NCBI GenBank assembly: GCA_902791425.1
Contig: CADAVS010000003.1
Span: 1-39,770 of the forward strand
Direction: 5' to 3'
DNA from: an uncultured Ruminococcus sp.
GTDB taxonomy: Bacteria > Bacillota > Clostridia > Monoglobales > Monoglobaceae
DNA: 39,770 bases
Part shown: positions 10,511-37,296 of the stretch, piece by piece
How positions within the stretch are numbered: position 1 is the stretch's first letter
Layout of the letters: the number at the start of each line of letters is the position of its first letter
The notes under the pieces: model-generated
The model's database searches: none
The model's input: the letters and a program-made list of their open reading frames with translations, nothing else
Told to the model about the DNA's origin: nothing
Position numbers and translations under genes: made by a program

Positions 10511-10586
10511 CTATATGTGTAGATGTGCAGACTTCTTTTATGTTAAAATTAAAATATAAATATAAAAATTTATGGGAGGAAAAATA

Positions 10587-18600: not shown

Positions 18601-18719
18601 CCGACGCATACATTACAAATATGCTTGAAGATAATGTGTCCGAAACAAATGTGATTAACAATACTATTGAACTTAACTTCAAAGCATTTGAGGTGATAAC
18701 TGTCAGATTGCATATTTAA
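15654..18719 (+). CDS. Alpha-mannosidase, GH38
   Basis: 1021 aa from TTG 15654, chosen because AAAGGGA (15642-15648) is 5 nt upstream; the first ATG (15666) would be 17 nt away. GH38 marks: zinc ligands in 'GHSHLDLEWLWT' (H258, H260, D262), the catalytic nucleophile D372 in 'WLPDVFG', and 'LFNQFHDILPGT' with the further zinc-site histidine near residue 577. This is followed by the beta-sandwich C-terminal domains. No signal peptide, so cytoplasmic. GH38 enzymes hydrolyse alpha-1,2/1,3/1,6-mannosides with retention. It follows the importer genes and the hydrolase remnant by 10 nt, so it was probably in the same operon as both. It points to alpha-mannose in the imported glycan. Confidence 0.93.
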   Translation: MDNYMRKEFIHKLNRFEQCVSERTYKKIAEVPFIGFVTKERLSLAEAETMPAKPWVVGTPWGCKFEYGWFFAEIVISEELNGKRVVFKNDMGEGVVFVNGDVYGALDKEHSEITLSRTAKVGEKYSIAYEVYAGHTTEPIETFQHRVIQEDKEYTEFPENVFQKQVQNGEVGIFDDQVYALLMDFRTLNSLYRKISENSTSMRTQMIEKTFEKLCTSFDVEVAEDEFKQQVAQARELLKPLLDCKNGSTAPTVYAVGHSHLDLEWLWTIDETRRKAARTLGNQMHLMEEYPDYTYVQSQPWLFNVIKNEYPDMYSKVKAAVKKGQLVPDGATWVEMDTNIPSGESLVRQFIFGKRFIKEEFGKDSKILWLPDVFGISAALPQIMKSCNVDYLYNAKMMWSYNHGVPIYKGTYKWRGIDGTEVLLYAQAPYNALMTPEQNITMWQEADNTENVPDIMVCYGHGDGGGGATREHLEYAIRQSDLEGAPRVKMSDPLDFYIDVEKRYNCNKVFENELWYAEHKSTYTSQSELKKLNRRSEAALHNAEFWTALIGGDKRQQLNELWKEVLFNQFHDILPGTTMKEPVDRAVNSYKNVIVQCDNITNTVLDSVVDNTKDAITVFNALPWARNVEIELPREYTSLKAVDGKNIHTYTCCGKTYANVYVEACGYESYVLDKNIAAEAESSGGELVLQNEYIRAEFDVEGRLISLRSDEDEYINAPSNEFKLYKNHPALFDAWDIDCDYTEKEVDANISSTAKIVSKTSQKTVLHIIKKFSNSVIEQYVTLKKDSATLDFETKINWQETHKLLKVNFNTNIHTKELMSEIQFGHICRSNHTNHEDDVAQYEKFQHKWSALAENGRMFALLNDSVYGVSADKGTVSLTLLTASMAPMLNADKGEHTFKYSVCVTNQPLDKSPIVSEAYGLNNPVKVVKGFANAKKFFELSKNNIVLETVKTAEDGSGDVIIRMYEAAKKRTNCKLKLGFDVTDAYITNMLEDNVSETNVINNTIELNFKAFEVITVRLHI

Positions 18720-18795: not shown

Positions 18796-21138
18796 ATGAA
18801 GAAAAAGATTAGTTTTATTCTTGCAGTTGCAATGATTTGCACAATGGTTGCTCCGTTTAGTGCGTTTGCGGTAGGCACACCATCTGTACAAAAGGTAGAT
18901 GGCGAATATTATTTTGATGCTTTTTCGGACACTTTTGCTACCAGTGATGTTCAAAATCAATTGCTAGAGGATATAGCATACTTCAATGATAAAATAAGTA
19001 AAAGTGGTAAACTTACAACTAAAGTATATGATAAAGATAATTATGCAGTTACCGGAGAAAGTACAACTGCAGGTAATTTGCATGGCGGTGCATACACCTA
19101 TGCTTTTCGTGCGCCTAAAGCAAAATTTGAAGATGCTAACAAAAAAGTGGTGCTTACATACGATTTATTTTACAGTGGTGATACCACAACTAGTGCTAAT
19201 GTTACCGCAAACATCGGATTTGTAAACTGGGCTAATACGTATGGTTCAACTGACACAGGATGTAGAATAGGTGCTTACTTGTCATATGTCACAAGAAATC
19301 AGATAGGTTACTCTACTGGGCAAAAGAAACCATATTTAACTTATAATGACGGTACTTACGATTTTTCGTCGAATGCAAATCATTTTGGAGCTATATCTGC
19401 AGTCGCTAACAATACGTACTTAGACGTACCAGAAGGCGGAAGATGGTTTAAAATGCAGACTGTTCTTGAATATGACTCTACTGAAAAATCATACAACAGC
19501 ACATATTATGTAGATGGTTCGCCGATCAAAACCAAGGAAGGCAATGTTGCAGTAACTAAAATAACTATATCAGATAGTACGCGTAAAACCCGTCTTAGAG
19601 ATAATAGAGCTTATATGTGCTTTTCTATACAGGGCTTGAATTCCAGAGTTGCAGTAGATAATGTATCCCTTCGTCTGGTTGACGCAGCATCCGGTACAGC
19701 TCCTGCAACAGCTAATGTAAGCGGTGATACAATTACCATTCCTTTTGAGAACACAACAAACATTGCAAATACTGGAGCAGCCCCTGAACAGGTTAAATTG
19801 GGCTATCTCAATGCAGACACAGCATCAAACGCAGTAGTCACTCAAGCATCTACAGGAACAGAGCTTACTACAGAAAACAAGATAGAAGACAACAAACTCA
19901 TTATTAAGATTAAAGATAATTTGAATAATGAAAAAGTCAAAGTAAACCTTACAGGCGTAAAAGATATTATGGGAAATCAGGTTGCACTTGATAATACTGA
20001 GTATGATGTTACTGCAAACATAGGTTCCTACAATATACCAAACAATGCGTGGTATCAGACTTTTGAGGGATATACTGCAGAAACTATTAACACTCTCGGA
20101 TTTTATCGCAGTACAAGTAAAACGAATACAACGAATTCTCAGGCTGTTTTAGATGCAACACATGGAAAAAACGGAAGCGCGGCAATGGCTTGGAAAGGTT
20201 CATCAAACAGAGTAATCAGCGGTCCCGGTAAATATACAAATACCGCATTCTTAGCGGATGCCGGTCACTTTGAAAATAGCGGCAAAGTGCTTGAATACGG
20301 CTTTGATGTATTTATCCCCGGTACCCGTAATACAGGCGAGGCAGTTACTGCTCAACTTGCAATTACAACAAGCGATATGAAAAGCCCGCAGTGGATTTCC
20401 CGTACTCCTGCAATGAGTCAAAACGCTGACGGAATTAAATTCACAAGCTACAACGCAGACAGCTTGAAAAGCGATTGGGGTGTAACAGCAGCTAGTAATG
20501 CAAATATATACACAGCAGTTAACTTCCCGAATGATTTTAATAGCAAGACATCTGTAGTGACCGATACTGTTCCGAATACAGGAAAATGGGTAAAATTGTC
20601 TTCAAGAGTTGCATATATGACAGACGCTAGTGGCGGATATTATCTTACGACTTTCTATGTTGACGGTAAGATTATGCGAAATGCAGATGGTTCACCTGCA
20701 GTTATGAAGCTCCAAAAGGAAACTGACGGTAAGACAGTTTCGGTTAATGATAGAGGTTCATTTGAATTCCAGGTGGGCATAAATCCCGGAAGCAATGTTG
20801 GTGATGATGTTGTATATTATGTAGATAATATGTATATGAAGCTTGTTAACCCAACAGATGCGGAAGAGCTTAATATCTATGATATTGAAACTTCAGAAGG
20901 TGGAAAAACAGCATCATTTGTGTACAACAATCTTTCAAAACAGGATCAGTCATACCAGTTTATCATTGCAGGATATGATTCAGACGGTAAGCTTGTTGCT
21001 GTAGACGTTTCAAAAACAGGAAAAATCCCTGCACGCAGTACGGGTACGGTATCTTCTACACTTGAGTCTGACATGACAATCGCTTCTTACAGGGCGTACC
21101 TCTGGGACGGCTTTAGCAACTGCAATCCATTGAAATAA
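18796..21138 (+). CDS. Secreted protein with two lectin-like modules (unknown family)
   Basis: 780 aa with a signal peptide ending near 'FSAFA-VGTP' (residue ~26). No catalytic motif or cell-wall anchor is recognised. Residues ~35-293 form a module that starts 'GEYYFDAFSD', contains 'ANKKVVLTYDLFYSG', 'GGRWFKMQTVLEYDSTEKSY', 'YYVDGSPIKT', and ends 'VAVDNVSLRLV'. An Ig-like stretch follows ('GDTITIPFENT...LGYLNADTASNAVV...VKDIMGNQVALDN', ~305-400). A second, diverged copy of the module follows (~415-690, 'WYQTFEGY', 'VLEYGFDVFIPG', 'GKWVKLSSRVAYM', 'VYYVDNMYMKLV'). The last ~90 residues are a beta module ('IIAGYDSDGKLVAV', 'YRAYLWDGFSN'). Homologous modules occur in the proteins at 24848 and 31354. 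It is probably a glycan-binding surface protein; the function is not established. Confidence 0.75.
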   Translation: MKKKISFILAVAMICTMVAPFSAFAVGTPSVQKVDGEYYFDAFSDTFATSDVQNQLLEDIAYFNDKISKSGKLTTKVYDKDNYAVTGESTTAGNLHGGAYTYAFRAPKAKFEDANKKVVLTYDLFYSGDTTTSANVTANIGFVNWANTYGSTDTGCRIGAYLSYVTRNQIGYSTGQKKPYLTYNDGTYDFSSNANHFGAISAVANNTYLDVPEGGRWFKMQTVLEYDSTEKSYNSTYYVDGSPIKTKEGNVAVTKITISDSTRKTRLRDNRAYMCFSIQGLNSRVAVDNVSLRLVDAASGTAPATANVSGDTITIPFENTTNIANTGAAPEQVKLGYLNADTASNAVVTQASTGTELTTENKIEDNKLIIKIKDNLNNEKVKVNLTGVKDIMGNQVALDNTEYDVTANIGSYNIPNNAWYQTFEGYTAETINTLGFYRSTSKTNTTNSQAVLDATHGKNGSAAMAWKGSSNRVISGPGKYTNTAFLADAGHFENSGKVLEYGFDVFIPGTRNTGEAVTAQLAITTSDMKSPQWISRTPAMSQNADGIKFTSYNADSLKSDWGVTAASNANIYTAVNFPNDFNSKTSVVTDTVPNTGKWVKLSSRVAYMTDASGGYYLTTFYVDGKIMRNADGSPAVMKLQKETDGKTVSVNDRGSFEFQVGINPGSNVGDDVVYYVDNMYMKLVNPTDAEELNIYDIETSEGGKTASFVYNNLSKQDQSYQFIIAGYDSDGKLVAVDVSKTGKIPARSTGTVSSTLESDMTIASYRAYLWDGFSNCNPLK

Positions 21139-21205
21139 TTATTGTAATACAGTAAATGACCTGTAAATAATTTTAAAAATCAATCGAACAATGGCTATGC
21201 GTTTT

Positions 21206-21226
21206 GGGGCGGAATATGTCCGCCCC
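21206..21226. terminator. GC-rich hairpin between surface-protein genes
   Basis: GGGGCGGA (21206-21213) and TCCGCCCC (21219-21226) form a perfect 8-bp stem with the loop ATATG. A TTTT precedes it and no T-run follows on the + strand, so it is not a textbook terminator. Given its strength and position 68 nt after the stop of the preceding gene it may still end or stabilise that transcript. Confidence 0.5.
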
Positions 21227-21237
21227 GTTGCAGCCGT

Positions 21238-21288
21238 TTGTATTCAGACATTATTATCCATAAAATTGGGTAATAATGTTTGAATACA
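21238..21288 (+). promoter_or_regulatory. 21-bp inverted repeat overlapping a candidate promoter
   Basis: The left arm at 21239-21259 (beginning TGTATTCAGACATTA) pairs with the right arm at 21268-21288 (ending TAATGTTTGAATACA) over 21 positions, two of them G-U in RNA, around the 8-nt loop ATAAAATT. The same stretch offers TTGTAT (21238-21243), 17 nt, then TAAAAT (21261-21266), a plausible sigma-A promoter whose -10 falls in the loop. It lies 26 nt before the RBS (CGGAGGT) of the large surface operon, so it may be an operator, an mRNA 5' hairpin, or an attenuator. Confidence 0.6.
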
Positions 21289-21326
21289 ATAAAATATTCA
21301 AGAAAAATAGAAACGGAGGTTTTGTA

Positions 21327-24300
21327 ATGCATAAGCACAGTTTTTTGGGCATATTACTCACAGCAGCGATTGTTTGTACAAGTGCGGTATATGCCGACGC
21401 ACCCGTCTACAACACCGTAGAGCCTATATCGGACTCTGAAGAAGTTGTGGCATATGTTAATTTTGGCAACAATGTGGAAAGCAGCGGAATGACAGCGTGG
21501 ATGGGCGAAAAACCGGATATCACTGTTACCAATAAGCAAGGAAGAGAAGGTTGGGTTTTAGATGTAACAAACAAGCAGGACAATGCTTACATCTATTTTG
21601 ATGTTGACGATAATGTGGCTAAGAATGTATTGAATGGTTCCAGTTATCGAGTGGAGGTAGATTACTATGACGAGAGTATATCGAGTCTTGTCTTAAGCTA
21701 CGATCCATATGAGCGAGTTAATGACAGACACGATAATTACAGTTGGGGATCTATGGTAAGAACACACAAAGTTACCCCAAAGGAGTTGGAGCTTGTAGAG
21801 TTCAAGGACACACAAACCTGGAAAACGTACAGCTGGTATTTGGAAAATCCGACTTTCAGTGGAAATATGACCAATGGTGCAGACTTCCGCGTTGGTGCAT
21901 ATGGCTATAATATGGGATATTCCAGAGGAAAGACTCCTCCGGTTGTAGGCTCTGTAAGACTGATTAAAACCGGCACCAGAAGCCTTGTTAATATGACTGT
22001 AACCTCCGATGCTCACGGAAATAACTTTTTTGACGGCGAAGAGGTGAAGCTCAAGGTTAGTATGGACAATTCATACTATCAGTATGAGAGCAGTACTCTC
22101 GGTGATTGGACTGCTGACGTTACATACAGTGTTTACGACAGTCAGGGTAATCTCTATGCCCGAAAAAAAGACACTGCTCGTATGGAGGTTATGAAGACTA
22201 CAAATAAAGAAGTTACCTTCGATATAGACAAATATGATTTGTATTCCTTTATAGTAGAGATTAAAAATGAAGAATTGGGGTTGTACAGCAGGGAACGCTC
22301 AGTATTTGCATATATAAAGGATGCCAGTGAACACCCCAATCCCCGTCACGGAATCGGTGCATCGGCAACTATTCCTGATACCGAACCTATGAAAGAAAAT
22401 GTACGGCTAATTAAAAATGCAGGCTTTGCTCATTTGAGAGCACTTTTTGACGTGTCTTATGAAGTTCACAAATACTATCCTGAGGGCTGGAAGAATACTG
22501 ACGTAACCTGGTATAAGCAGTCCTATCAGGATTATATGAAAGAACTAAATGATGCCGGCATAGAAGTTTTAGCTTATTATAATGGTGATTTCGACAAAGC
22601 GGATTCTTTTGGCAACCGCGGTTACGTTACTGATGAAGGACGAAAGAATAATAATTTCCTGTTTGACGGTCTTGCCGGTATGCTTGGAAAGAGTATTACA
22701 TCTATGGAAATCCTCAACGAATGGAACGGCTCAAGAGTAACCATACCTGAGGGAGAAAACAGAGGCTCTACTTATGCGGCTGTTTGTAAAGCACTCTATC
22801 CCGAAATGAAGAAAAAATACCCCGATCTAACTATTGTGGGTATGGTTCCGTCAAATGTTAAAGTGGATCGTGAAGGTGAAACGTATTTTCGTGAAGCATT
22901 TGAGGCAGGTGCTGCCGATTATATGGACTTGATATCAGTACACTTTTACAATCAGACAGGCCCTAACTTTACATACGACTTCTTCTCCGAGGCTCAAAAT
23001 ACTTATGATATTGCGAGAGAATATGGCTACACGGGACCTATCTGGGTTACCGAAACCGGTACAACCTCAAATGACAACGGAACTGACAGTGAGGAAATAC
23101 AAGGTTGGAGAGATGTACAGGCTTATATAATTTTTCAGGAAAACGAATATTTTGACAGAATTTACAGCTTTTCATCATTTGACTCTCACTACAATCGTGA
23201 CAGGAACGAGCATGAGGCAAACTTCGGTATGATAGAGGGTAAATCAAAGGCTAACAGAATTGTAGATGACGGTGAGGTTGATTGGTCGGCTAAGCCTAAG
23301 TACCTTGGATTTTGTAATCTTAACTCGCTTCTCTATGACGGAAAATATGTAGATAAGATTATGTTTGACAATGTTACAGCCGGTTATCACTTTACAAAAA
23401 AGGACAGCGGTAAGGATATTGTTGCACTGTTTTCCGAAAAGCCTATGACCGATGTCAGTTTAGACCTTGGTACAAACAAGGTAACCGTGTATGATTTTTA
23501 CGGCAACAAAAAAGAGATAACCTCTGACGATGGTAAATATACATTTACTTTAAACGAGGCAGTGTGCTATGTAGAGGGTAATTTTGCAAGATGTGTAAAG
23601 ACAGATACAAGCCTTGTAAAACCAAGCACAGCTTACATTGAAACCGATTGCGGCGAAGAGCATACAATCAGACTTGAAAATAACACAGGAAAAACTCTCA
23701 CAGCAGAGATTAGTCTTATGGATGAGTCGCTCATTACCTGTGAAAAATCAGTTACTATTCCTGACGGCGGAGTAGATTTTACCTTGAGAGCATCAAAGAC
23801 AGCACCTAAAAAGGATGAGCCTGTACACATTACAATAAAAGACGGCGATTCTGTTTACTTTGACGGTGATGTAGTAATGTATATGGTATCTAAGATTTAT
23901 ATGGAGCCAAATGCTGCATTTAGTGAAGGCAAGGCTTGTATAAGAGTTACTTTGAGAAATACAAGTAATATCGATGCAAACGGCTATATAGAAGTTGTTA
24001 ATCCTTCAGAACTTACAGAGCAAAGCAGACAGAAGGTCAGCATCCCGGCAGGTACTACAAAAGACTTTGACATTATTCTTGACGAAAGCTATACAGCACA
24101 AGATCTATATGCTATGGTACGCTTTGTTTCTGATGTTTCAGAAAGTAATCCTATATATACGGATAAGATATTCAATTTTGAGTATGCATCAAAGGCGTTA
24201 AAAGCTCCTACCATTGACGGCGACTTGTCTGATTGGGACAGAGGCTGGATTCATATGAATAATGTTCAGAACTACAAGGAGTATATAGGTTACTTCAAAT

Positions 24301-24830
24301 CATACGATGGTATTAAAGATTTGAGTGCCGATGCTGCATTTATGTGGGATGAGGAAAACTTATACTTTGCTGCGGAGGTTACAGATGATATCTTCTATTG
24401 CCAGGATACAACAGCAGCTCAGGCATGGATGTGCGACGGTATTCAGTTGGGATTTGCACTATATCCGGAGAAATTATTGCAAAGATATGATTTTGAGGAA
24501 ATAATGCTTGTTCTTTTGGACGGCAAGCCCACCATATACAGACACAGGTCAAAATTCAGTCTTGATGACACTACGGTTGTTAATAACGCTGAAATTGCCA
24601 TTACTCAAAATGAGGATAAAACCAAGACGTATTATGAATTTAAGTGTCCGTGGAATGACCTCATACCAAACTATGGCGGAATTAAAGCCGGCGATGATAT
24701 GTTTGTAAGTATATGTATAAACGATAACGATGCTGAGGGCGGAAGATGCGGTGCTATGCTTTACGGCGGCGGTATTGAAGATGCAAAAGACTTCAACAAA
24801 TTTAAACGTATCTATATAAATGACAGATAA
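21327..24830 (+). CDS. Secreted clan GH-A glycoside hydrolase with C-terminal CBM9-like domain
   Basis: 1167 aa from ATG 21327 (CGGAGGT 21314-21320); the frame runs up to 21276, but that extension lies in the hairpin. The signal peptide ends near 'VYA-DAP'. Residues ~30-215 are a beta-rich, probably binding, domain and ~220-330 an Ig-like segment. A TIM-barrel core follows (~335-640) beginning 'PNPRHGIGASA', with the acid/base E465 in 'MEILNEWNG', 'DLISVHFYN', and the nucleophile E576 in 'IWVTETGT'. The 111-residue gap and N-E / T-E contexts are those of clan GH-A; the layout resembles GH39/GH5 but no family is certain. After beta domains, residues ~960-1167 match the CBM9-like domain ('KAPTIDGDLSDW', 'FMWDEENLYFAAEVTDD', 'YYEFKCPWNDL'). 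The next gene begins 17 nt on. Confidence 0.8.
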   Translation: MHKHSFLGILLTAAIVCTSAVYADAPVYNTVEPISDSEEVVAYVNFGNNVESSGMTAWMGEKPDITVTNKQGREGWVLDVTNKQDNAYIYFDVDDNVAKNVLNGSSYRVEVDYYDESISSLVLSYDPYERVNDRHDNYSWGSMVRTHKVTPKELELVEFKDTQTWKTYSWYLENPTFSGNMTNGADFRVGAYGYNMGYSRGKTPPVVGSVRLIKTGTRSLVNMTVTSDAHGNNFFDGEEVKLKVSMDNSYYQYESSTLGDWTADVTYSVYDSQGNLYARKKDTARMEVMKTTNKEVTFDIDKYDLYSFIVEIKNEELGLYSRERSVFAYIKDASEHPNPRHGIGASATIPDTEPMKENVRLIKNAGFAHLRALFDVSYEVHKYYPEGWKNTDVTWYKQSYQDYMKELNDAGIEVLAYYNGDFDKADSFGNRGYVTDEGRKNNNFLFDGLAGMLGKSITSMEILNEWNGSRVTIPEGENRGSTYAAVCKALYPEMKKKYPDLTIVGMVPSNVKVDREGETYFREAFEAGAADYMDLISVHFYNQTGPNFTYDFFSEAQNTYDIAREYGYTGPIWVTETGTTSNDNGTDSEEIQGWRDVQAYIIFQENEYFDRIYSFSSFDSHYNRDRNEHEANFGMIEGKSKANRIVDDGEVDWSAKPKYLGFCNLNSLLYDGKYVDKIMFDNVTAGYHFTKKDSGKDIVALFSEKPMTDVSLDLGTNKVTVYDFYGNKKEITSDDGKYTFTLNEAVCYVEGNFARCVKTDTSLVKPSTAYIETDCGEEHTIRLENNTGKTLTAEISLMDESLITCEKSVTIPDGGVDFTLRASKTAPKKDEPVHITIKDGDSVYFDGDVVMYMVSKIYMEPNAAFSEGKACIRVTLRNTSNIDANGYIEVVNPSELTEQSRQKVSIPAGTTKDFDIILDESYTAQDLYAMVRFVSDVSESNPIYTDKIFNFEYASKALKAPTIDGDLSDWDRGWIHMNNVQNYKEYIGYFKSYDGIKDLSADAAFMWDEENLYFAAEVTDDIFYCQDTTAAQAWMCDGIQLGFALYPEKLLQRYDFEEIMLVLLDGKPTIYRHRSKFSLDDTTVVNNAEIAITQNEDKTKTYYEFKCPWNDLIPNYGGIKAGDDMFVSICINDNDAEGGRCGAMLYGGGIEDAKDFNKFKRIYINDR

Positions 24831-24847
24831 ATCGGAGGTATAATATT

Positions 24848-27800
24848 ATGAAAAAAATTATCAGCATTGTAATTGCTATTGTAATTTTGTCAACAATGCT
24901 CCTGCCAATGACATCATTGGCAGGGAATGTAGACGATATTTCATTCGTCAGAGAAAAAAATCAATATTTCTTTGAAGATTTTTCGGCTTATGATGGCACC
25001 AATATGGATAGTGCTAATTTGAACAATGGCAAAAATATTGGTTACTATACCAGAAGCGTAGCTGTGGATGGTGTAAACGTTCCGAATGTTAAGCAGTATG
25101 TGTATGATGACGGAAACATTGCGGTAGCTCCCTATTTGAGCGGGCAGACTTTCGTTTTGGTTGGACCAAGAGGTAAATCCTCAACAGCACAATACAACGA
25201 ATATGACTTTATATTAGATAAAACTAATTTTGAGGACGCGGGCAACGCTCTCGTACTGAGTTACGATTTGTATGTCCCTTACTCCAGAAGTAACAAAACA
25301 AAATTTTCCGCATATTTGGCATTTGGATATCAGGGTAAGGATTTTAATGGTCAGTCGGGTATTGCTAAAGGTCCGCAACTTGTAAACAGTTCGTCCGGTC
25401 AGAGTTTTACAGGTTGGAATAGTGAGCAAATCGTTGACGGAGCTCAGTATATTGTTAATGCTCAAGACAAGGGCGGCTCAACTATGAACATAAGCATTCC
25501 AAATGACGGAGGCAAATGGTTTGATATTGAAACCTTCGTGGTTTATGACGATGAGCAGAAGGCATATGTGTCATGGAATACTGTAGACGGCGAGCCAATC
25601 AGATGTACGACAGGTTCGTCTGAGGGCGAAATTGCAAAGCTTGTTGCAAAACCGACTGATGATATTCTTCCTAAACTAAAGGATGAGAGAAGAAATGTTT
25701 GGTTCCAGTTTGGTAACGGAACAGCTGAAGAAGATGGTTATGCTATAGATAATATTGCTATAAAACTGTATAACGGTTGTAAAATTGATAACTTTTTATC
25801 TTTATATCCCGACGAAACTACGATAGAAATTCCCGTTTACAATGGCTATGATTTTTCTGACGGTGCACCCGAGGAGATTAAGAGAGGCGTATTTTCAACA
25901 GAGGCTCTAAAAGCAGATAACGGAGTAACACTTACAAAATATGCCGCAGATGACAAGCTTCTTTTAAACGGAGAAAAAGTTACAGATTACAGTATATCTT
26001 CAAATAAAAATGTGGTAATACTTAATGATGTGGCAGAGAGAGACCCCGGCGAATGTATGATGCTTGAGATGAATGGACTTGAGTCTGCGGACGGCAAGGT
26101 ATTAAACAACAGAATGTTTATAGCACCGTCTGAAAACTTTAAAGGAATTGTAGACAAGCATTTCTTTGATGTAAGCGGAGTGGAGATTGCAGTTGATGAT
26201 ATAAATAATATATCTCCTGCAACAGCTACAATTGAGCTGGAATTAATTGGAGTAAGCAGTGCTGTTATTAAAAACGCGGACAATACTGCAACTTGGACTG
26301 CTGATAATGGTGTATTTGACTTTACTTCTGTTCCGCTCAGAACAAATACAGAATATACAATTTACTTAGACGGCGGAGAATATACCAAATTTAAAACAGT
26401 GGAAAACGGTTCCCTTACATTCGGCAATTTTACAAAGAGTTCCGATGCCGTAAATGTTAAATACACCAACACATTCGACGATGATCGGACTGTCTATGCG
26501 ATTGTTATGAATTTTGATGAAAACGGCAGATATATTGCAGGTAATGTAGCTCCAAAGACACTTGCCGGAACTTCAAGCAGTACTGTTACTGTAGATTTAA
26601 ACAGTGTTTCCGGTACTTCTTACAGCAAGGTTGTAATTGTAGACGGATTACAGACTTTAAACGCATTTACAGATGTATATTCCACGAACGGCAATAACAT
26701 CGTTTCTGAAAAAGCTGAAGCTTCAAATGCTTTAGAGTCAGAGAATTTTGATAATAATGGTTCGGTTGTTGTAAAGGGTAATCTTGGAAGCGGTGAAACC
26801 CAGAGAGTTACAGCTGTACTTATAGACGCAGAAGGGAATTTCGTATATGCTAATGATGTAAAGTCTGCAAATGACGGCTCGTATATTTTTAGTATTGATA
26901 TGACAAGCGATATTGCTACAGGTACATACTATTTATATGTTGCGGCAGACGGAAAAGTTTTTGAGAACGGAAAAGAGATACACTATTCAAAGGATGCAAG
27001 TACTGCCATTGCACTTGTAAATAAGGCACAGACTAAAGAAGAGCTTGCGGATATAATTAAAAAGAATCAGGCAGATCTTGAATTCTATTATGATGAATAC
27101 TATGCTCATTTCAACGACAGCGAAAAAGTTATGGTAGCATCAATTTTAATCGGTGAAAAAGAAGACTTAAAAAAATCTAACGGTATTGGATTTGTTACCA
27201 CTGACAAAAACGCGGCAACAAGTGCCTTTAGAAAAGCGGTTATCGTTGCGGCTGTATCTGCCGGCTCTATCAGCAGTTATACTGAGATGGAAGCTAAAAT
27301 CCAACAGCTTGGCAGCGGCATATTGTATGAATGGGTAAATGAAAACGGCAGCAAAGATATATCTTCTGATTTGAAAAAGAAATGGCAGGCGGGTATTATT
27401 TCACGCCTAAATGGTGCAGAGTTTGCAACGACAAGCGACTTCATTAATAAGGTATATGCCGCACTCCTATTTGAATGCATAGCAGATGCTGACGGGCATG
27501 GTAATATTATGGATATGATTAATGACTATATTGATGGAGGCTATATAAGCGGACTTGACAAAAAATATATTACTCCATATGTTTGTAAAAAACTTGTAGG
27601 AAATAATTATACAGGTTTTGAATACTCAATTCTTGCAAAGGATATAAAAAAATATTATGCTGACGAGATTGCTGATGACAACACGGAAAACAGACCCTCG
27701 GGAGGTAGAGGCGGTAGTTTTACCGTTTCAGGTAATACATTAAGCACTCCGGCAACTATTGATGAACAGAATGCTAGCAATGAGATTTTTAACGATATAA

Positions 27801-28327
27801 GCGATTCGTGGGCTAAGGATATAATAATTGAGCTTGCAAATAAAAAAATTATTTCCGGCAAGGACAACGGAAAATTTGCTCCTTCTGACAATATTACAAG
27901 AGAAGAATTTACGGCAATTATAGTAAGAATGTTAGGAATTAACGCTAAAACAGATGCTTCTGTTAATTTTGTCGATGTAAAACCTGGCGACTGGTATTAT
28001 GATTCTGTAAGAATTGCATATCAGCATGGAATTATAAATGGAATAAGTTTTTCGGAATTTGGTGCAGGTGCTAATATCAGTCGACAGGATATGGCTGTTA
28101 TTCTTAAAAATTCCCTTGATTTGCAAGAAATCAGTTATGAAATTTCATCATCGGATTTTGATGATGAAGAACAGATTGCAGAGTATGCAAAGGATGCGGT
28201 AGACGTTCTTTCATCTGTAAGAGTGATACACGGTTATGAGGACGGTCGCTTTAGACCTAATGGGTTGGCTACAAGAGCAGAAGCTGCAAAAGTAATTTAT
28301 GAAGTAATGCAGTTGCTCAACAAATAA
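24848..28327 (+). CDS. S-layer-anchored multidomain surface protein (shared N-module, three SLH domains)
   Basis: 1159 aa; signal peptide ending near 'TSLA-GN'. Residues ~30-310 are the shared module ('YFFEDFSAYDGTN', 'FEDAGNALVLSYDLYVPYS', 'GGKWFDIETFVVYDDEQKAYVSWNTVDGEP', 'AIDNIAIKLY'). Next is an Ig-like part ('ETTIEIPVYNGY', ~320-430), the beta module 'VKYTNTFDDDRTVYAIVMNFDENGRY' (~520-617), another Ig-like domain (~627-715), a long helical region (~720-950) and a Gly-rich linker. Three SLH domains follow (~978-1159): 'FNDISDSWAKDIIIELANKKIISG', 'FVDVKPGDWYYDSVRIAYQHGIING' and 'YAKDAVDVLSSVRVIHGYEDGRFRP'. SLH domains bind pyruvylated secondary wall polymers. No catalytic site is seen, so it probably acts as a glycan-binding or scaffolding anchor. 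Confidence 0.85.
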   Translation: MKKIISIVIAIVILSTMLLPMTSLAGNVDDISFVREKNQYFFEDFSAYDGTNMDSANLNNGKNIGYYTRSVAVDGVNVPNVKQYVYDDGNIAVAPYLSGQTFVLVGPRGKSSTAQYNEYDFILDKTNFEDAGNALVLSYDLYVPYSRSNKTKFSAYLAFGYQGKDFNGQSGIAKGPQLVNSSSGQSFTGWNSEQIVDGAQYIVNAQDKGGSTMNISIPNDGGKWFDIETFVVYDDEQKAYVSWNTVDGEPIRCTTGSSEGEIAKLVAKPTDDILPKLKDERRNVWFQFGNGTAEEDGYAIDNIAIKLYNGCKIDNFLSLYPDETTIEIPVYNGYDFSDGAPEEIKRGVFSTEALKADNGVTLTKYAADDKLLLNGEKVTDYSISSNKNVVILNDVAERDPGECMMLEMNGLESADGKVLNNRMFIAPSENFKGIVDKHFFDVSGVEIAVDDINNISPATATIELELIGVSSAVIKNADNTATWTADNGVFDFTSVPLRTNTEYTIYLDGGEYTKFKTVENGSLTFGNFTKSSDAVNVKYTNTFDDDRTVYAIVMNFDENGRYIAGNVAPKTLAGTSSSTVTVDLNSVSGTSYSKVVIVDGLQTLNAFTDVYSTNGNNIVSEKAEASNALESENFDNNGSVVVKGNLGSGETQRVTAVLIDAEGNFVYANDVKSANDGSYIFSIDMTSDIATGTYYLYVAADGKVFENGKEIHYSKDASTAIALVNKAQTKEELADIIKKNQADLEFYYDEYYAHFNDSEKVMVASILIGEKEDLKKSNGIGFVTTDKNAATSAFRKAVIVAAVSAGSISSYTEMEAKIQQLGSGILYEWVNENGSKDISSDLKKKWQAGIISRLNGAEFATTSDFINKVYAALLFECIADADGHGNIMDMINDYIDGGYISGLDKKYITPYVCKKLVGNNYTGFEYSILAKDIKKYYADEIADDNTENRPSGGRGGSFTVSGNTLSTPATIDEQNASNEIFNDISDSWAKDIIIELANKKIISGKDNGKFAPSDNITREEFTAIIVRMLGINAKTDASVNFVDVKPGDWYYDSVRIAYQHGIINGISFSEFGAGANISRQDMAVILKNSLDLQEISYEISSSDFDDEEQIAEYAKDAVDVLSSVRVIHGYEDGRFRPNGLATRAEAAKVIYEVMQLLNK

Positions 28328-28355
28328 TCAGACTTTAAAAAGGAAGTGAACTTGA

Positions 28356-30998
28356 ATGAAGAAAATAATTGCATTACTTTTAGTGTTTTCACTAATCATA
28401 CCCGGTATGATTATGCCTTCGTTTGCAGTGGAGGTCACAAATGAACATTACGGTGAGGATATTATCAATGAGCTTGAAATACTAAAACATCTCAATATAG
28501 CGGAACAAGATACAGACCTTTCGAAAAAAGTTACAAGAAAAGAGTTTGCAGAGTATATCGGAAAAATGTTAAACCTTGGTACACAAGGACGGACAAACCG
28601 TGTTTATTTTACAGATGTACCCTCCGGCAGTATTATAAATGACTTGGTAGAGCTTGGAATATTTAACGGTACTGTTGCGGAAACTTTTTCACCCAACGAT
28701 GAGATTGTGCTTTCACACGCTTGTGTGGCTCTTGTAAGAGCTTTAGGCTATGTTTACAATGACTCAGACAGTGAGAATATTTATCAGACTATTGTAAGAC
28801 GTTTAGATATTGACGAAGATGTAGTATATGATGACGGAGCTACAAACCGTAATATACTCATTATGATTTACAACACCCTGATGACAGCTGTAGCAGAACC
28901 ATCATATGAAAGAGATAAGTCAGGTGTATGGTCACACAATGTGAAGTGGCGGAAAGATGGTCAATCGCTTATTGAAAATGTATTTGATGCTTATGTTATT
29001 GATGATGGCATTGTAACAGAGACTTACATTTCAAGTCTTAGCGGTGCCGGCACAATAAGCAAGGATGAAATTAAAATTGACAAAAAAACATATAAATGCC
29101 AAATTCCCGAAGCTGCCGAACTGATCGGTCAGCATATAAATGCACTTGTTTCAACTAAAGAAAATATTGAAGAAGTTATTTACATTTCAGCTGATGAAAC
29201 AGAAAACGACACTATTGCAATAGATGCAGACGATATTGGCTCTTTTGACGATTATTGTCTTACATATTATGACGAAAACGACAAGGAACGTGAAGTAAAG
29301 TTTGAAACTACTATGTCGCTTATTTACAATGGTGTTGCAGAGAGCAAAAACATTAAAAAGTTTTTTGAATTAAAAGAGGGTACGGTAAAGTGTGTTAAAG
29401 GTCGTGATAACCTTTACAGCGTGGCAATAATAACGGAATTTGTAAATGTACGTGTAGCTAAAGCGGCAAACCTCCATGACTTGATTATTTACACTGAATC
29501 TGTACCTCCGTACAACGCACTTTGCTTTGATGATGCAAGCGATACTTTTAAGAAAGTATATCTTGCAAGCAATGGTACTGAAGTAGGAGCAACGGTTCTG
29601 GTTGCCAGAGATATTCTTTCGGTTATTCGGTCTACTAACGGAAAATACATTAAGGCTTATATTTGCACAGAAACTGTAAAAGGAAAATTAGAATCCATAA
29701 GCAATGCGGTTAATAAAATTTACACAATAAACGGCAAAGAATATGAAGCAGCTCCCGGATTTGACCCATTGGATAAATATAAACTCGGGGACAATGTAGA
29801 GTATATTCTTGATGCAACAGGCAGGCTTGCAGCTGTTTCAAATGCAAATACAACAGGTGATAAAACTGTAGGTTACTTGTACCAGATGAGTAAGAATGAT
29901 TATGCTTTCGACGATGTTAAGCTCAAAATATATACTCAGAACAAAGAACACAAAATTTTTGAATGTGCTGACAAGGTACAAATTGACGGTGTTAGTGTAA
30001 ATAAGGAAGATATCCGTAGAGTTTTAGGCAACGGTTCAGGCGAACTGAAGAGAACTGTGGTTTTCTTTGAAACAAACAGCGAGGGTAAACTGGTTTACAT
30101 AGATACACCGGCCGCTTCAAAAGATGATAGAGAGAGCAGTAACTCACTATGGATATATGAAAAGGAAGGGAATTTCAAATTTGATGATACAAATAAGATG
30201 TTTTATCCCAAATATCCGTTGTGGTATGATACTTTCATCTTCTGCATACCAAGTGAAGACGACTTATATCCCGAGGAACTGTCATTTGATGTATATATGG
30301 ACAAAACAGGACCATTTGTATCCAAAGCGAATTACAGGGTTTCTATGTATAAATTTTCTGATGACACTCCTTTTGTTGATGTAATTACTTACGATTGCGG
30401 AGATAGGTATACAGGTGAAATCTTAAGTTTGGACAAAGTAATGCTTGTCGAAAGAATAAAGCAAGTAAGTGATGAGGATGGTGTTGGCGTATACGTTATA
30501 TGCGGTGCTGAGAATGGTACATACAAGGAATACAGAGTTGAAAACGGAGTTGACATATCAAACATTGGAGAAGGAGATATCATACGCACCGGAAGAAATG
30601 GCAGAGGATATGTTTCAATAAAACCCGAACTTGTATATGATTACAGTGAAGACAAGAAAAGCTGGCCGGGATTTGCAAGTGCTTCTTATGATTCTAATGG
30701 ACGATTTACATTAGGGTATATTGAAGATATATATCACTACAATGTTGGCGGTACAAACAACGGAAGAATGAGTGCCGTGAGCGTATCTACTGTACCGGGC
30801 GGTGAAATTGAAGAAATGTATCTTTTAGATACAAACTCCAACAATTTTATGATTTATGACAGCCTCAAAAGAGATTACAAAGTATATGTAGGCAGCATAA
30901 ATGAGGCTGTATCTAATGATTTAAATACAGGCGAACCATCTAAAATATTTATACACGTAAACGGTACAAATGTTGTAAATGTAATTATATACAGATAA
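28356..30998 (+). CDS. SLH-domain surface protein of unknown function
   Basis: 880 aa; signal peptide ending near 'PSFA-VEV' (residue ~25). The N-terminal ~28-135 holds two SLH-like repeats: 'EDIINELEILKHLNI...KVTRKEFAEYIGKML' and 'YFTDVPSGSIINDLVELGIFNGT...FSPNDEIVLSHACVALVRAL'. A third degenerate repeat may follow. The remaining ~700 residues are beta-rich with recurring segments of the kind 'INGKEYEAAPGF', 'GDNVEYILDATGRLAAV' and 'AKDILSVIR'-like strands, with no catalytic motif recognised. Last gene of the surface operon: it starts 28 nt after the previous stop and is followed by a strong hairpin. It is probably part of the S-layer that displays the neighbouring enzymes; this is inference. 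Confidence 0.8.
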   Translation: MKKIIALLLVFSLIIPGMIMPSFAVEVTNEHYGEDIINELEILKHLNIAEQDTDLSKKVTRKEFAEYIGKMLNLGTQGRTNRVYFTDVPSGSIINDLVELGIFNGTVAETFSPNDEIVLSHACVALVRALGYVYNDSDSENIYQTIVRRLDIDEDVVYDDGATNRNILIMIYNTLMTAVAEPSYERDKSGVWSHNVKWRKDGQSLIENVFDAYVIDDGIVTETYISSLSGAGTISKDEIKIDKKTYKCQIPEAAELIGQHINALVSTKENIEEVIYISADETENDTIAIDADDIGSFDDYCLTYYDENDKEREVKFETTMSLIYNGVAESKNIKKFFELKEGTVKCVKGRDNLYSVAIITEFVNVRVAKAANLHDLIIYTESVPPYNALCFDDASDTFKKVYLASNGTEVGATVLVARDILSVIRSTNGKYIKAYICTETVKGKLESISNAVNKIYTINGKEYEAAPGFDPLDKYKLGDNVEYILDATGRLAAVSNANTTGDKTVGYLYQMSKNDYAFDDVKLKIYTQNKEHKIFECADKVQIDGVSVNKEDIRRVLGNGSGELKRTVVFFETNSEGKLVYIDTPAASKDDRESSNSLWIYEKEGNFKFDDTNKMFYPKYPLWYDTFIFCIPSEDDLYPEELSFDVYMDKTGPFVSKANYRVSMYKFSDDTPFVDVITYDCGDRYTGEILSLDKVMLVERIKQVSDEDGVGVYVICGAENGTYKEYRVENGVDISNIGEGDIIRTGRNGRGYVSIKPELVYDYSEDKKSWPGFASASYDSNGRFTLGYIEDIYHYNVGGTNNGRMSAVSVSTVPGGEIEEMYLLDTNSNNFMIYDSLKRDYKVYVGSINEAVSNDLNTGEPSKIFIHVNGTNVVNVIIYR

Positions 30999-31044
30999 AG
31001 TTTTAATGCAGAGTTGTCTAAATAAATTAAATGTATATCATAAA

Positions 31045-31079
31045 TTAAAGGGCATCCCAAAGTAAAAGATGCCCTTTAA
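31045..31079. terminator. Strong hairpin terminator after the SLH surface operon
   Basis: TTAAAGGGCATC (31045-31056) and GATGCCCTTTAA (31068-31079) form a perfect 12-bp stem around an 11-nt loop, followed by ATGATATTTTTATTTTTT. It closes the operon 21327-30998. Because the arms are flanked by A/T runs it may also stop transcription from the other side. Confidence 0.75.
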
Positions 31080-31353
31080 ATGATATTTTTATTTTTTAAA
31101 ATTGTATTATGGATGTTAATTGAATATTCCAATGAAGTGTTTTATTTCATATTTGAGCATTATATAAAAATTCGAATTCTATCCGTGAATGGTACGGAGT
31201 GTTTACAATATAGCAGAGAATTTTCAATTGGGTATTTTATTCAAAATAGAACCATAAAATTACTATTTGTACAGATTGTAATGGGAGGTAACCTATTTTT
31301 TTTTAAAAATACAGTGAGCAGGTAAAACCATTTGACCTTTATAGGAGGGGATT
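31080..31353. other. Non-coding stretch before the GH/InlB-repeat gene
   Basis: Together with the terminator this fills a 355-nt gap. It is AT-rich. An 81-codon frame at 31080-31325 starts inside the terminator flank, has no RBS and a low-complexity Phe/Ile-rich translation, so I do not call it a gene. The gap must hold the promoter of the next gene, but no convincing -35/-10 pair was found. The RBS is AGGAGGGG at 31343-31350. Confidence 0.6.
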
Positions 31354-34300
31354 ATGATGAAAAAAATTAGTTTGATACTTTCGCTTGTATTAATCTGTAG
31401 CTTATTTGCCGAACAGAGCGTGTCGGCAAAGTATCTTTCGGAAGTTTCGTTCAAAAAGTATGATAATGCGTATTTCTTTGATGATTTTTCTAAATACGAC
31501 GGTACAAACATTGGCGGTGATTTGCAGACAAACAGCATTGGCTACTACGCAATAAATGCCGCAAGATATGTATATGGCGAAAAAGACAGTAATTATGCTG
31601 TTATGCCGAAAGCTACATACAGCACCCCCAGTTATGATAAAAATTACACAGCTCTTGCTTTAGACGGTCCCCGAGGAGGCTGGTTTGCGGATCCTGATGC
31701 ACAACCGCCGATCGCTGCCAGCCCTAATGGATTTCGGTTTAATATTGACAAGGAACACTTTGAAGATGCCGGTGTTGCTCTTGTTTTCAGCTATGATGCT
31801 TACATTCCATATGACAGAAAAGATAATGTTATGGTAGAAAGTTATATAGGCATCAGCACTGACGGCGGTTTGACGTATGATCGCTGGTTAGCCCGAGGCG
31901 GAAAACTTAAGAGTAGTTCAAGCGGTCAGAATATTATTGGATATAACGCATCAAAAACCATAGATGGAACCACAAGTAATGCTCTTAACAATATTACTTC
32001 AACAGGTACTCCGCAGATTGATTTAAAACTTACACAATCTGAACTTGGAAGATGGGTTAATATGCAGACTGTGCTTTCCTATGATGCCCAAAGCAAGTCG
32101 TATATTTCCTGGAATTTGGTTGACGGTGAGCCCATAAAGCAAACTGCTGGTTCAGATGCAGGCAAAATCGCAAAAATTATTGCAACTCCTACCGATGATT
32201 ATCTTAATAAAATTCAAAACAGAGAATGCTTGTCTTTTTTTATCGGAGCACGATACGCAACAGAAGGAAAACCGGTGGCGGTTGATAATGTTGCAATGTA
32301 TCTTTTTAAATCAGCAGAGGCTCAGGACGGAAAAATAGACGGTAAGACAATTACCATCCCTTTTACAAACGGATATAACTATATTTCATCAATTAATCCG
32401 CCAAATCAAGTTACCAAAGGCTGGATTAATACTGATACGGCAAGTAATGTAAAGGTTTATTTAGATGATAAATTAGTAGATGGAACAACAACGGTTACAG
32501 ACGGTAATGTCCTTAAAATTCTTCTTTCCGTGGAACCTTCTGAAGGACAACGTTTAAAAATTGTCCTTGAGGGCGTCGAAGATATTGCGGGTAATCAAGT
32601 AAAACCGGATAATAGGGCATATTCAATAACAAAGCCTGTTATTACAAGTCAATCTAAAGTGGCACCGTTTTCCATTTTCGAAAAAAGTGAGGGTGTACAT
32701 TATATTGTAAATATAGATTCCGGAACATACACAGTTAAAGACTACTTTGGTGAAATAGTAAAAAGCAGTGAATTTTCCAACGGGAAAATAGATATCGCAA
32801 ACCTTAATTTAGGAAGATTTGAAATTACTGTAAATGACGGTATATGCGAAACAAGCGGCGGTTTTTCTGTTGTGCCTGATGTGGATACAAGACGCGATAG
32901 TTCAGAGAGCGGATTTGCATTTTCGGCAATGGCATCCCACACTCCAACCAGTCAAAATTATGAATCTGTTTACGCAAAAACAATAAAACTTGCCGGAGTT
33001 CATTATGTAAGGGAATTTTGCAACGCAGACGAAGTAGATAAACTAACAAGCGAAGGTTCAAAAAGGTACAGAAAACTTCTTAATGAATATGCCGCTAACG
33101 ATATTGGTGTTATGTTTATGTTTCAAGTGTTCCCCGGAAAAAGCAACGGTATCGGTAAAGAAGATGGGCATGCAGTTACAAGAGATATGATTAGCGTATA
33201 CAATAAAGTTAAGTCTATATTTAATCAGCACGGAAACCTTATTGATACAATAGAAATACTAAATGAGGTAGATGTTAATGGTGCAACTGTTTATGATGGA
33301 CCTGATTTGTATGCTGCATTTTTAAAAACAGCTGCAATCGCAGCGGCAGACAGTAAAAGCGATGTTCTTATATCTACTGAGGGTTCTGCTCAAAATCAGT
33401 TCGGATATATGGAAAAATTATTTAGTAATCAGATATCCGATTATTTTGATGTATACAACACCCACTGGTATGAGAATGAAGATGCAGGATGTTCATCAAA
33501 TGTTGTAGAATATCCGGAAAACATAGATGAATATTTCTTTCAGTCAAGACCATATGGACTTACAGAAAAGAAACTCTGGATGGGCGAATTTGGCTTGCGT
33601 ATGAGATATGAAACTGGTCTTGACGATTTGAATATTGAACAGCAAAAAGGTCAGGCAAGAACCGCACCTACTGCTCTCATAACTGCACAGGCAAACGGTG
33701 CCGACAGAATATTCTGGTTTATTCACGGTTATATATCAGAGGCTATATCGGGACAAAATAATGCCAACGGATATGGCACTATTGACGCTAACTACAATCC
33801 TAATATGGTATACAGCTCTATTTCCGCTTTGACTAATGCAATAGGAAATGCAAGGTACAAGGGAAAGTTCGATAATTCCAATACAGAAGTCAATGCTCAC
33901 TGTTATGAAGACGGCAATACCGAAATCGGATGTTTTTGGTCAGATAATGAGCAACAAATAGAACTTTCAGTAAACAGAGGAAATGTTACTCTTACTGATA
34001 TAATGGGTAATGAGAAAACAATATCTGTAAATGACGGAAAAGTTACACTTACCGTTGGACCTGATATTCAATATATAAGAGCCGAAAACGGTTTTTCTTC
34101 AGAGAGTGTACAAAAAAGAGTAGAATATGATAAAGATTATAAAAGAACAAAATTTACAAAGAGTAAAAAAATTGTAATGCTTCCGATTTTTGAAAACAGT
34201 GCATCAGAATGGACAAGGGACAGATCATATATTCTTTCAGGAACATCTGGAAATACTGTTAAACTCAGAGTGTATAATTTTAATGATGAAGAGATGAGCG

Positions 34301-35583
34301 GTAATGTAAGAATAACTCCTCCTGAGGGTTGGAATGTTTCAATAACATCTAAGGATGTGACAGTTGCTCCTATGGACTATGCAGAACTTGACATTACACT
34401 TACAGGAAGCAACTCCGCTGTAAAGCCTATTATATTCTCGGCAGAGTTTGACGGTGAAAGAGTTTCTGATGCAGTAAGTTACATAAATTCTAAAAATCTT
34501 GGACCATATGACGCACACAGATATATTTCGAATATTGAGTTAAACAGTATTTCATACACTGATGATATGCTCAAAACTGAATTTAATATGGATATAAAGG
34601 CAGTTAAATATCTTATAGACGGCAGAATGTATGATGTTCCGGTAAGCGGACGCATAGCAGAACTTAAAATACCTCTAACGAACGGTGAGCATACGGTCTA
34701 TGTAAGTGCATTTGAAGAATCCAATACTTCCGTCGCGTTTGAAAAAACTATATTGGTAGAGAGAGACAGTGCTGATTGCGTGATAACATATAATGCAAAT
34801 GGCGGCGGTGGAGCACCGATGCCCCAGTTAGCAAAGAATGGAGAAGAATTCAAGCTTTCGTCAGACAGACCATATAAGAGAAATTCGGTATTCATAGGAT
34901 GGTCTAGAAGTAATAATTCTGATTCGGTAGAATATAATCCTGGCGACAAAATCAGTGCAGAGTTAAATATGGTTCTTTATGCTGTATGGGATGATTGTGT
35001 CGAGATTAACAGCGAACATTTTGCACGTTATGTTGCGGATAAAGCCACAATAAAAGGCAAGGTCGATGTCTTATATGCCGGCACCAAAGCGGCGTTTGTA
35101 GTGTTTAATGGCGCGGTTTCTGCAAACAATATTACAGCTTCCGATATAGTTCACATCGGCGAAACTGTAATAGATTCAGAAGGAGAGTATGTTATAGAGT
35201 TTAATGTAAGTGATTTTCCTGATTATAGATATATTTTAAACACGAAGGAGGGTGTAATATCTTCCAAACTCATTGAGGTATCAACCGTATATGATATATT
35301 GGATTATGAGATTACCGTAAGCCAGAGGAATGATACATTTTCCGTAAAGGCTGTTTTTGAAAAGCTGTCAGAGGAGGAAAGCCCGGTATATCTTATAACA
35401 GCATTGTATGATGAAAATGAGTCGCTTATAGAAACATATATGGTATTTGCAGAAGTTGAGCGAGGAAAAAGCGGTATTGGCGGAGTTTATAAAATTCCTG
35501 AAAATGCAGTAACAAGAAAAATATTTCTGTGGACTGCCGATGGAAATTTAACACCGATTTGTGAGCCTAAAATATATCAATAA
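31354..35583 (+). CDS. Giant secreted clan GH-A glycoside hydrolase with shared N-module and InlB-type repeat
   Basis: 1409 aa; signal peptide ending near 'QSVSA-K' (residue ~25). Order: shared module ~30-320 ('AYFFDDFSKYDGTN', 'FEDAGVALVFSYDAYIPYD', 'GRWVNMQTVLSYDAQSKSYIS', 'VAVDNVAMYL'), an Ig-like module ~330-425 ('KTITIPFTNGY', 'INTDTASNVKVYL', 'GVEDIAGNQVKPDN') and a beta segment. A TIM barrel of ~512-840 follows, with acid/base E638 in 'IEILNEVDV' and nucleophile E745 in 'LWMGEFGL'. After it come a NEW3-like beta domain ('NDEEMSGNVRITPPEGW'), one Listeria-Bacteroides (InlB B-type) repeat near 1141-1213 ('ITYNANGGGGAP', 'FIGWSRS', 'LYAVWDD') and the C-terminal beta module ('LITALYDENESLIETY'). 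It has no SLH domain, so it is released or held through partners. The exact GH family is not certain. Confidence 0.8.
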   Translation: MMKKISLILSLVLICSLFAEQSVSAKYLSEVSFKKYDNAYFFDDFSKYDGTNIGGDLQTNSIGYYAINAARYVYGEKDSNYAVMPKATYSTPSYDKNYTALALDGPRGGWFADPDAQPPIAASPNGFRFNIDKEHFEDAGVALVFSYDAYIPYDRKDNVMVESYIGISTDGGLTYDRWLARGGKLKSSSSGQNIIGYNASKTIDGTTSNALNNITSTGTPQIDLKLTQSELGRWVNMQTVLSYDAQSKSYISWNLVDGEPIKQTAGSDAGKIAKIIATPTDDYLNKIQNRECLSFFIGARYATEGKPVAVDNVAMYLFKSAEAQDGKIDGKTITIPFTNGYNYISSINPPNQVTKGWINTDTASNVKVYLDDKLVDGTTTVTDGNVLKILLSVEPSEGQRLKIVLEGVEDIAGNQVKPDNRAYSITKPVITSQSKVAPFSIFEKSEGVHYIVNIDSGTYTVKDYFGEIVKSSEFSNGKIDIANLNLGRFEITVNDGICETSGGFSVVPDVDTRRDSSESGFAFSAMASHTPTSQNYESVYAKTIKLAGVHYVREFCNADEVDKLTSEGSKRYRKLLNEYAANDIGVMFMFQVFPGKSNGIGKEDGHAVTRDMISVYNKVKSIFNQHGNLIDTIEILNEVDVNGATVYDGPDLYAAFLKTAAIAAADSKSDVLISTEGSAQNQFGYMEKLFSNQISDYFDVYNTHWYENEDAGCSSNVVEYPENIDEYFFQSRPYGLTEKKLWMGEFGLRMRYETGLDDLNIEQQKGQARTAPTALITAQANGADRIFWFIHGYISEAISGQNNANGYGTIDANYNPNMVYSSISALTNAIGNARYKGKFDNSNTEVNAHCYEDGNTEIGCFWSDNEQQIELSVNRGNVTLTDIMGNEKTISVNDGKVTLTVGPDIQYIRAENGFSSESVQKRVEYDKDYKRTKFTKSKKIVMLPIFENSASEWTRDRSYILSGTSGNTVKLRVYNFNDEEMSGNVRITPPEGWNVSITSKDVTVAPMDYAELDITLTGSNSAVKPIIFSAEFDGERVSDAVSYINSKNLGPYDAHRYISNIELNSISYTDDMLKTEFNMDIKAVKYLIDGRMYDVPVSGRIAELKIPLTNGEHTVYVSAFEESNTSVAFEKTILVERDSADCVITYNANGGGGAPMPQLAKNGEEFKLSSDRPYKRNSVFIGWSRSNNSDSVEYNPGDKISAELNMVLYAVWDDCVEINSEHFARYVADKATIKGKVDVLYAGTKAAFVVFNGAVSANNITASDIVHIGETVIDSEGEYVIEFNVSDFPDYRYILNTKEGVISSKLIEVSTVYDILDYEITVSQRNDTFSVKAVFEKLSEEESPVYLITALYDENESLIETYMVFAEVERGKSGIGGVYKIPENAVTRKIFLWTADGNLTPICEPKIYQ

Positions 35584-35649
35584 TATGCGTATATTCGGCA
35601 TTCCCTACAGAATACACTAAAAAGCAATTAAGAAGGAAAGGTGATCATT

Positions 35650-37278: not shown

Positions 37279-37296
37279 TTGTATACGGAGGACAGT

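Follow-up and report, generated by a model that had tools for sequence, protein, structure and literature searches.

The window, a 39,770-base stretch that forms contig C3 of genome G000, probably encodes the extracellular part of a Gram-positive polysaccharide utilisation locus (PUL), in which concanavalin-A-like (ConA-like) capture modules and a wall-bound chassis of an SLH protein and its partner p880 would work together with an ABC importer and internal enzymes. This reading draws on homology, gene order, recurrence across families and the enzyme families encoded. The module shared by three of the surface proteins is narrow in distribution and the cassette architecture is broad; the wider system is seen through the module's neighbours p880 and p1184. 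Its conserved core is the importer, the SLH 'arm' and p880 with variable enzymes, and not the module. If it has not already been described, the SLH-p880 pair is what is most novel here, more so than the module.

Gene content of the locus

All notable genes between 9606 and 39483 lie on the plus strand, separated mostly by short gaps, in the order AraC-type regulator, GH130, solute-binding protein, two permeases, a 153-residue protein, GH38, five surface proteins, GH13 and GH36. The coordinates are presented in Table 1. Among solved structures, the GH38 enzyme is nearest to Ams1-type α-mannosidases and the GH130 enzyme to mannoside phosphorylases. The glycan-related setting that a preliminary description of this DNA had supposed for the module carriers is borne out by the importer, the AraC regulator and the GH38, GH130, GH36, GH13 and GH39-like enzymes. 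The 153-residue protein (15182-15643), which lies between the importer and the GH38 gene, was not assigned to a family; an ORF of the same length is found at the same place in genome G003 (L024:11925-12386).

Table 1. Positions in the window of the genes, domains and module copies discussed in the text.
Feature	Coordinates	Strand	Remarks
α-L-rhamnosidase-like	3600-5738	+	flanking sugar gene
Second GH36	6230-8392	+	flanking sugar gene
AXE1-type esterase	8408-9361	+	flanking sugar gene
AraC-type regulator	9606..10418	+	
GH130 mannoside phosphorylase-like enzyme	10572..11537	+	
ABC importer solute-binding protein	11571-13082	+	homologues adjoin the same cassette in other genomes
ABC importer permeases	13194-14108, 14112-15002	+	homologues adjoin the same cassette in other genomes
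GH38 α-mannosidase	15654..18719	+	no apparent signal peptide
780-aa secreted 'free' protein	18796..21138	+	two modules, one Ig-like domain, C-terminal ~75-aa beta domain
Module copy 1 of 780 aa	18877..19755	+	residues 28-320; alignment, genome profile search
Module copy 2 of 780 aa	20011..20910	+	residues 406-705; separate subtype; alignment, profile search, tree
1184-aa GH39-like (clan GH-A type) enzyme	21276..24830	+	C-terminal CBM9-like domain; no module
1159-aa SLH-anchored protein	24848..28327	+	module, diverged Ig-like domain, Ig + helical 'arm', three SLH repeats
Module copy of 1159 aa	24929..25837	+	residues 28-330; alignment, profile search
Three SLH repeats of 1159 aa	27788..28288	+	
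p880, 880-aa partner	28356..30998	+	N-terminal weak SLH-like region, then ~700 unassigned residues
1409-aa enzyme-like protein	31354..35583	+	module, Ig-like, GH-A-type barrel, NEW3-like, C-terminal beta domains
Module copy of 1409 aa	31435..32373	+	residues 28-340; alignment, profile search, AlphaFold/Foldseek
Ig-like domain after module of 1409 aa	32374..32628	+	TITIPFTN ... TDTASN ... DIAGN; from sequence
GH13 α-glucosidase-like enzyme	35641..37278	+	
GH36 α-galactosidase-like enzyme	37279..39483	+	

The 1184-residue enzyme matched PF11790 and PF06452 in Pfam and 5jvk in the PDB (E = 7e-4), the matches to PF11790 and 5jvk being weak, and a paralogue matches PF01229 (GH39). Residues Glu 482 and Glu 593 are invariant in five homologues and, judging from the sequences, are likely the catalytic pair. 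In the GH-A-type barrel of the 1409-residue protein, NE occurs at 637-638 and GE at 744-745. The 780-residue protein matched no Pfam family, and no anchor or other attachment to the cell was found in its sequence. Weak Pfam matches of p880 to viral glycoproteins fell below cut-off and were dismissed as chance. A terminal beta domain of ~75 residues with 'YLWD/FLWT'-like motifs is found at the C-termini of the 780- and 1409-residue proteins, with a similar one at residues 539-607 of the 1159-residue protein; it also closes the free proteins of related cassettes.

In the scheme proposed for the locus, ConA-like modules on the SLH-anchored and free proteins would hold a heteroglycan at the wall where the GH39-like and 1409-type enzymes would cut it. 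The adjacent ABC importer would take up the fragments, and GH130, GH38, GH36 and GH13 would finish them inside the cell. The SLH protein and p880 would form the constant wall-bound chassis, the parts being in physical contact, and enzymes and modules would be swapped for other glycans in other loci. The target would be one shared glycan, probably one that contains mannose and galactose. The rhamnosidase-like and GH13 genes fit such a heteroglycan poorly, and no single target glycan accounts for the rhamnosidase, GH36, GH38, GH130 and GH13 together.

The shared module and its predicted fold

The ORFs that start at 18796, 24848 and 31354, all on the plus strand and each with a signal-peptide-like start, had been thought to share an N-terminal module. 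Both BLASTP and phmmer found their N-terminal ~300 residues to be highly significantly alike. In BLASTP, the 1159- and 1409-residue proteins align at 32% across 441-451 residues with E values of about 1e-47 to 1e-51, and the 780- and 1409-residue proteins at 30% across 446 residues with an E value of about 1e-33. A second copy in the 780-residue protein is significant against both of the others (E about 1e-7 to 1e-9). When a four-copy profile was run against the 1.8-Mb, 192-contig assembly, exactly four places were returned, all in the window locus. The window thus holds four copies of ~300 residues across three secreted proteins: two on the free 780-residue protein, one on the 1159-residue protein with its C-terminal SLH anchor and one on the 1409-residue protein with its glycosidase-like barrel.

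The preliminary description was therefore right that enzyme, SLH anchor and free protein each carry the module and that one protein has it twice, and the motifs it quoted are present in the alignment of the four window copies. Other parts fared less evenly. The word 'giant' suits the 1159- and 1409-residue proteins and describes the 780-residue protein poorly. The Ig-like domain said to follow with TIxIPFxN and TDTASN is clean after the first copy of the 780-residue protein (ADTASN) and in the 1409-residue protein, but is diverged in the 1159-residue protein (TIEIPVYNG, no TDTASN).

As had been supposed, the module falls in no sequence family of Pfam, NCBIfam or the PDB, and its copies are not split among known families. 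Neither the whole carriers nor 11 excised copies from three genomes gave a Pfam match above the gathering cut-off, Laminin_G_3 included; an NCBIfam search of the window proteins returned nothing useful for the module, and PDB sequence profile searches nothing convincing. A match to PDB 2yzs (whole-sequence E = 0.002) had a best stretch with an i-E of 0.1 over ~60 residues and was set aside as chance. Kinship with CBM27 was also rejected. The CBM27 of Caldicellulosiruptor Man26 (PDB: 1pmh, E = 0.11) shares a mannan context and two short collinear weak matches with the module, including the terminal '(V/L)DNV' strand; however, the match is not significant, no CBM27 family is among the Pfam matches, and the fold comparison favours the ConA class.

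AlphaFold models of the module were built from only six sequences and are of low confidence, both for the 1409 copy with its Ig domain (mean pLDDT = 53, pTM = 0.55) and for the second copy of the 780-residue protein (mean pLDDT = 42, pTM = 0.49). A Foldseek search with the first low-confidence model identified almost exclusively ConA-like folds (PL7 alginate lyases, legume lectins, calreticulin, Emp46/47 and neurexin LNS). The best matches of the second, also a low-confidence model, were glucuronan lyase, Emp46/47, PL7, GH16 and GH131, with large unrelated viral proteins lower in the list. L-type lectin folds were also among the dominant matches for the two copies. Owing to the poor quality of the models, TM-scores by query length were low, mostly 0.15-0.32, and the fold assignment rests on local structural-alphabet similarity. 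The earlier guess of a jelly roll therefore gains from the agreement of two different copies and is likely rather than proven: the models point to a concanavalin-A-like lectin/glucanase jelly roll. With that fold class, the module represents a new family that has no name yet, although both its fold and the type of locus that houses it are known, and it is a candidate for a new lectin-like family.

The module shares this predicted fold class with Laminin_G_3 (PF13385) and the ConA superfamily, and its positional equivalents in distant cassettes carry Big_5 together with weak Laminin_G_3 or other ConA-like matches. In contrast to members of those families, it is not recognised by the Pfam models and it is longer (~300 residues). 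Identity of the window Ig domain with Pfam Big_5 was rejected, as an HH comparison with Big_5 segments gave a probability of 0.5%; the link between the two is thus only architectural.

We take the module to be a glycan-binding, presumably carbohydrate-binding, domain, although no carbohydrate-binding residue was identified in it. No group of invariant residues has a catalytic appearance, which is why we favour binding over catalysis. That the module is itself a ConA-like glycoside hydrolase or polysaccharide lyase, similar to GH16 or PL7, seems improbable. Its best Foldseek matches do include a PL7 alginate lyase (1vav), the glucuronan lyase (2zzj), GH16 and GH131, and a CBM of ~300 residues would be a large one; on the other side, neither an active-site-like acidic pair nor a Tyr/His set is invariant across the copies, one copy shares its protein with a GH-A barrel, and another protein has two copies.

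ConA-like domains can also be structural or adhesive instead of glycan-binding. Thus, the module might be an adhesion domain or spacer of S-layer-type proteins which, with the Ig-like domain, holds enzymes off the wall or links surface proteins and binds no nutrient glycan. We regard this as the less likely role, but one to be taken seriously. The module usually lies at or near the N-terminus and, second copies aside, is followed by an Ig-like domain; ConA-like folds occur in adhesins, and SasG is among the Foldseek matches. While F18, FE109-110, D121, G205, W207, YD216-217, VDG229-231, G239, K247 and DN284-285 are invariant in all four window copies, those that remain fully or almost invariant when 11 copies are compared (Y216, DN284-285 and DG230-231) look structural. 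A glycan-binding role is favoured in turn by the positional equivalents in other cassettes, which match lectin-type Pfam families, by the carbohydrate enzymes that otherwise fill the locus, and by the multi-copy free proteins, which are typical of binding proteins.

Distribution of the module and of the SLH-p880 pair

Among the 391 class genomes sampled, the module profile matched five, and four of these strongly; the fifth (G327) reached only 2e-4 and lies outside any cassette. Co-occurrence in other genomes, which the preliminary description had predicted, was found in G002, G003, G033 and G097. Within the same genus, G003 has the same module-bearing proteins as the window, and G002:C160 has the window's gene set in inverted orientation: GH130, importer, p880, the module-bearing SLH protein, a GH39-like/CBM9 protein, the two-copy free protein, a 1409-type enzyme and GH13-, GH38- and GH36-like genes. 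The enzyme as a module carrier holds for the window but not for G002, where the 1409-type enzyme lacks the module. A second, diverged cassette (G002:C8) has two module copies in its free protein and none in its SLH protein. G033, of another genus, presents an importer, a two-copy protein and a GH39-like protein, and G097, of another family, has three copies in the free protein and none in the SLH region. Because the G002 enzyme and the SLH proteins of G002:C8 and G097 lack the module, the carrier on which it is most constant is the free multi-copy protein. The nearest named relative is on MAG RUG12270, where a 1409-type ORF (L009:9923-11479) ends after 518 residues, before the barrel and near a contig end, by truncation or assembly error.

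These absences bear on whether the repeats are ordinary LamG-type decorations that were acquired independently by three proteins which do not form one functional unit. The enzyme copy occurs in one lineage and is missing in G002, and SLH copies are missing in two related cassettes. We nevertheless consider this unlikely, as the four copies are one family found nowhere else in the genome and, in a tree of 15 copies, subtype is conserved by position across genomes inside a syntenic locus. Second copies separate from N-terminal copies; window 780b, G002 802b and both G033 copies group together (99/97), and therefore two module subtypes predate these genomes.

The wider system was followed through profiles of the neighbours. 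The p880 profile matched 130 of 391 class genomes and the GH39-like/CBM9 profile 32 of 391; in a 398-genome sample of the phylum, p880 at E ≤ 1e-30 occurred solely in the window's own genome. Among the first p880 loci compared, mostly chosen for nearby GH39-like proteins, the recurrent order was importer, GH39-like protein, large unassigned protein(s), SLH 'arm' and p880, with the importer sometimes on the other side. The GH39-like proteins of this cassette carry CBM9, and the proteins in the module's place are of a ConA-like/Ig type, having Big_5 with weak matches to Laminin_G_3, Sialidase-like_CBM or MAM; one such protein elsewhere in the class has Laminin_G_3 over its cut-off. In an HH comparison of the module profile with the large proteins of p880 loci, probabilities were 99.7% for L078, 89% for L077, 82% for the L072 enzyme, 72% for a 715-residue protein of L077 and 72% for L075, with window control proteins at 1.4% or less; matches below 90% are suggestive only. 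The top ranks went to proteins in the module's place and to SLH N-termini, and related modules therefore recur on enzymes, anchors and free proteins alike.

Twenty further p880 homologues were taken by their place in the match list and not by their neighbours. An SLH protein lay immediately upstream of p880 on the same strand in 12 of these 20 loci. Neighbours included two GH10 (L084), a heparinase II/III-type protein with GH20 (L085, L098), HepII (L099), a beta-helix whose GH141 match is weak (L094), a polysaccharide deacetylase together with Laminin_G_3 and Big_5 (L088), GH38/GH13-like (L083) and GH39-like (L082) proteins and an importer (L089), a list that is not a census because only some neighbours were scanned. 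Other arrangements of these genes were also observed. In G097, the SLH arm and a p880-type protein, adjacent genes elsewhere, are fused in one 1412-residue ORF (L041:12561-16799), and p880-type genes are in tandem at L076:5526-11044 (G033:C13) and L077:4397-9811 (G045:C88).

A tree of 41 p880 proteins places SLH-paired copies on many deep branches and most copies that lack an SLH neighbour in one group (core solitary form 100/100). Genome G000 itself encodes a solitary p880-type protein of 971-972 residues away from the window locus (L101, G000:C14:243-3158). Since solitary relatives from other families make up one tight clade, L101 could be a core protein of the surface or of an S-layer-like kind.

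From these results, we tentatively suggest that the SLH 'arm' and p880 may constitute an undescribed recurrent wall-bound chassis, a counterpart to SusC/SusD as marker genes across Clostridia, to which ConA-like capture proteins and enzymes are fitted interchangeably and in which p880 is kin to a solitary core surface protein. No description of the SLH-p880 pair was found in the literature covered, which took in few subscription journals. To our knowledge, the Gram-positive bacteria of gut and rumen have no agreed pair of glycan-locus marker genes comparable to SusC/SusD. If the suggestion is true, a pair recognisable by sequence would allow Gram-positive glycan loci to be found and their targets predicted. 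It would also raise the question of how an assembly that is bound to the wall but is not a cellulosome captures glycans and passes them to an ABC importer.

Comparison with known systems

The window locus is of a widespread and apparently undescribed kind of Gram-positive sugar-harvesting cluster. As defined in the available text of Sheridan et al. 2016 (PMC5320581), a gpPUL combines polysaccharide-degrading enzyme(s), a carbohydrate transport system and a transcriptional regulator in one locus; gpPULs have no SusC/SusD. The window has the enzymes (GH38, GH130, two GH36, GH13, rhamnosidase-like and GH39-like genes), the transporter (solute-binding protein and two permeases) and the regulator (AraC, 9606-10418), and no Pfam match to SusC or SusD was found among the window proteins scanned. 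It thus resembles the gpPULs of that text, with their ABC transporters and AraC-type regulators, and differs from them, as described there, in the SLH 'arm' and p880 pair and the ConA-like free protein. No paper combining the terms 'gpPUL' and 'SLH domain' was found in the same literature.

Like a cellulosome, the locus has a non-catalytic surface protein that presents binding modules beside enzymes; unlike one, it has neither cohesin nor dockerin, none being found on contig C3. The earlier claim that neither is used holds for the locus but not for the genome, which has its sole dockerin on C61 and cohesins on C61 and C20. On C61, a 576-residue protein ending in a two-repeat dockerin adjoins one of 800 residues that combines a cohesin with three SLH repeats (L111, G000:C61:4410-8647). 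The genome that contains the window thus also encodes a minimal one-to-one wall system of cohesin and dockerin.

The 1.8-Mb assembly of G000 encodes 58 SLH repeats over roughly 25 to 30 proteins, and SLH anchoring is therefore a major surface strategy there. SLH-anchored carbohydrate enzymes of gut and rumen Clostridia, for example those of Monoglobus pectinilyticus, are secreted and held at the wall by SLH repeats at their C-termini. The window locus is like them in its secreted carbohydrate-active proteins and C-terminal SLH anchoring; however, it places anchor, binding module and enzyme on separate proteins and adds p880 as a recurrent partner.
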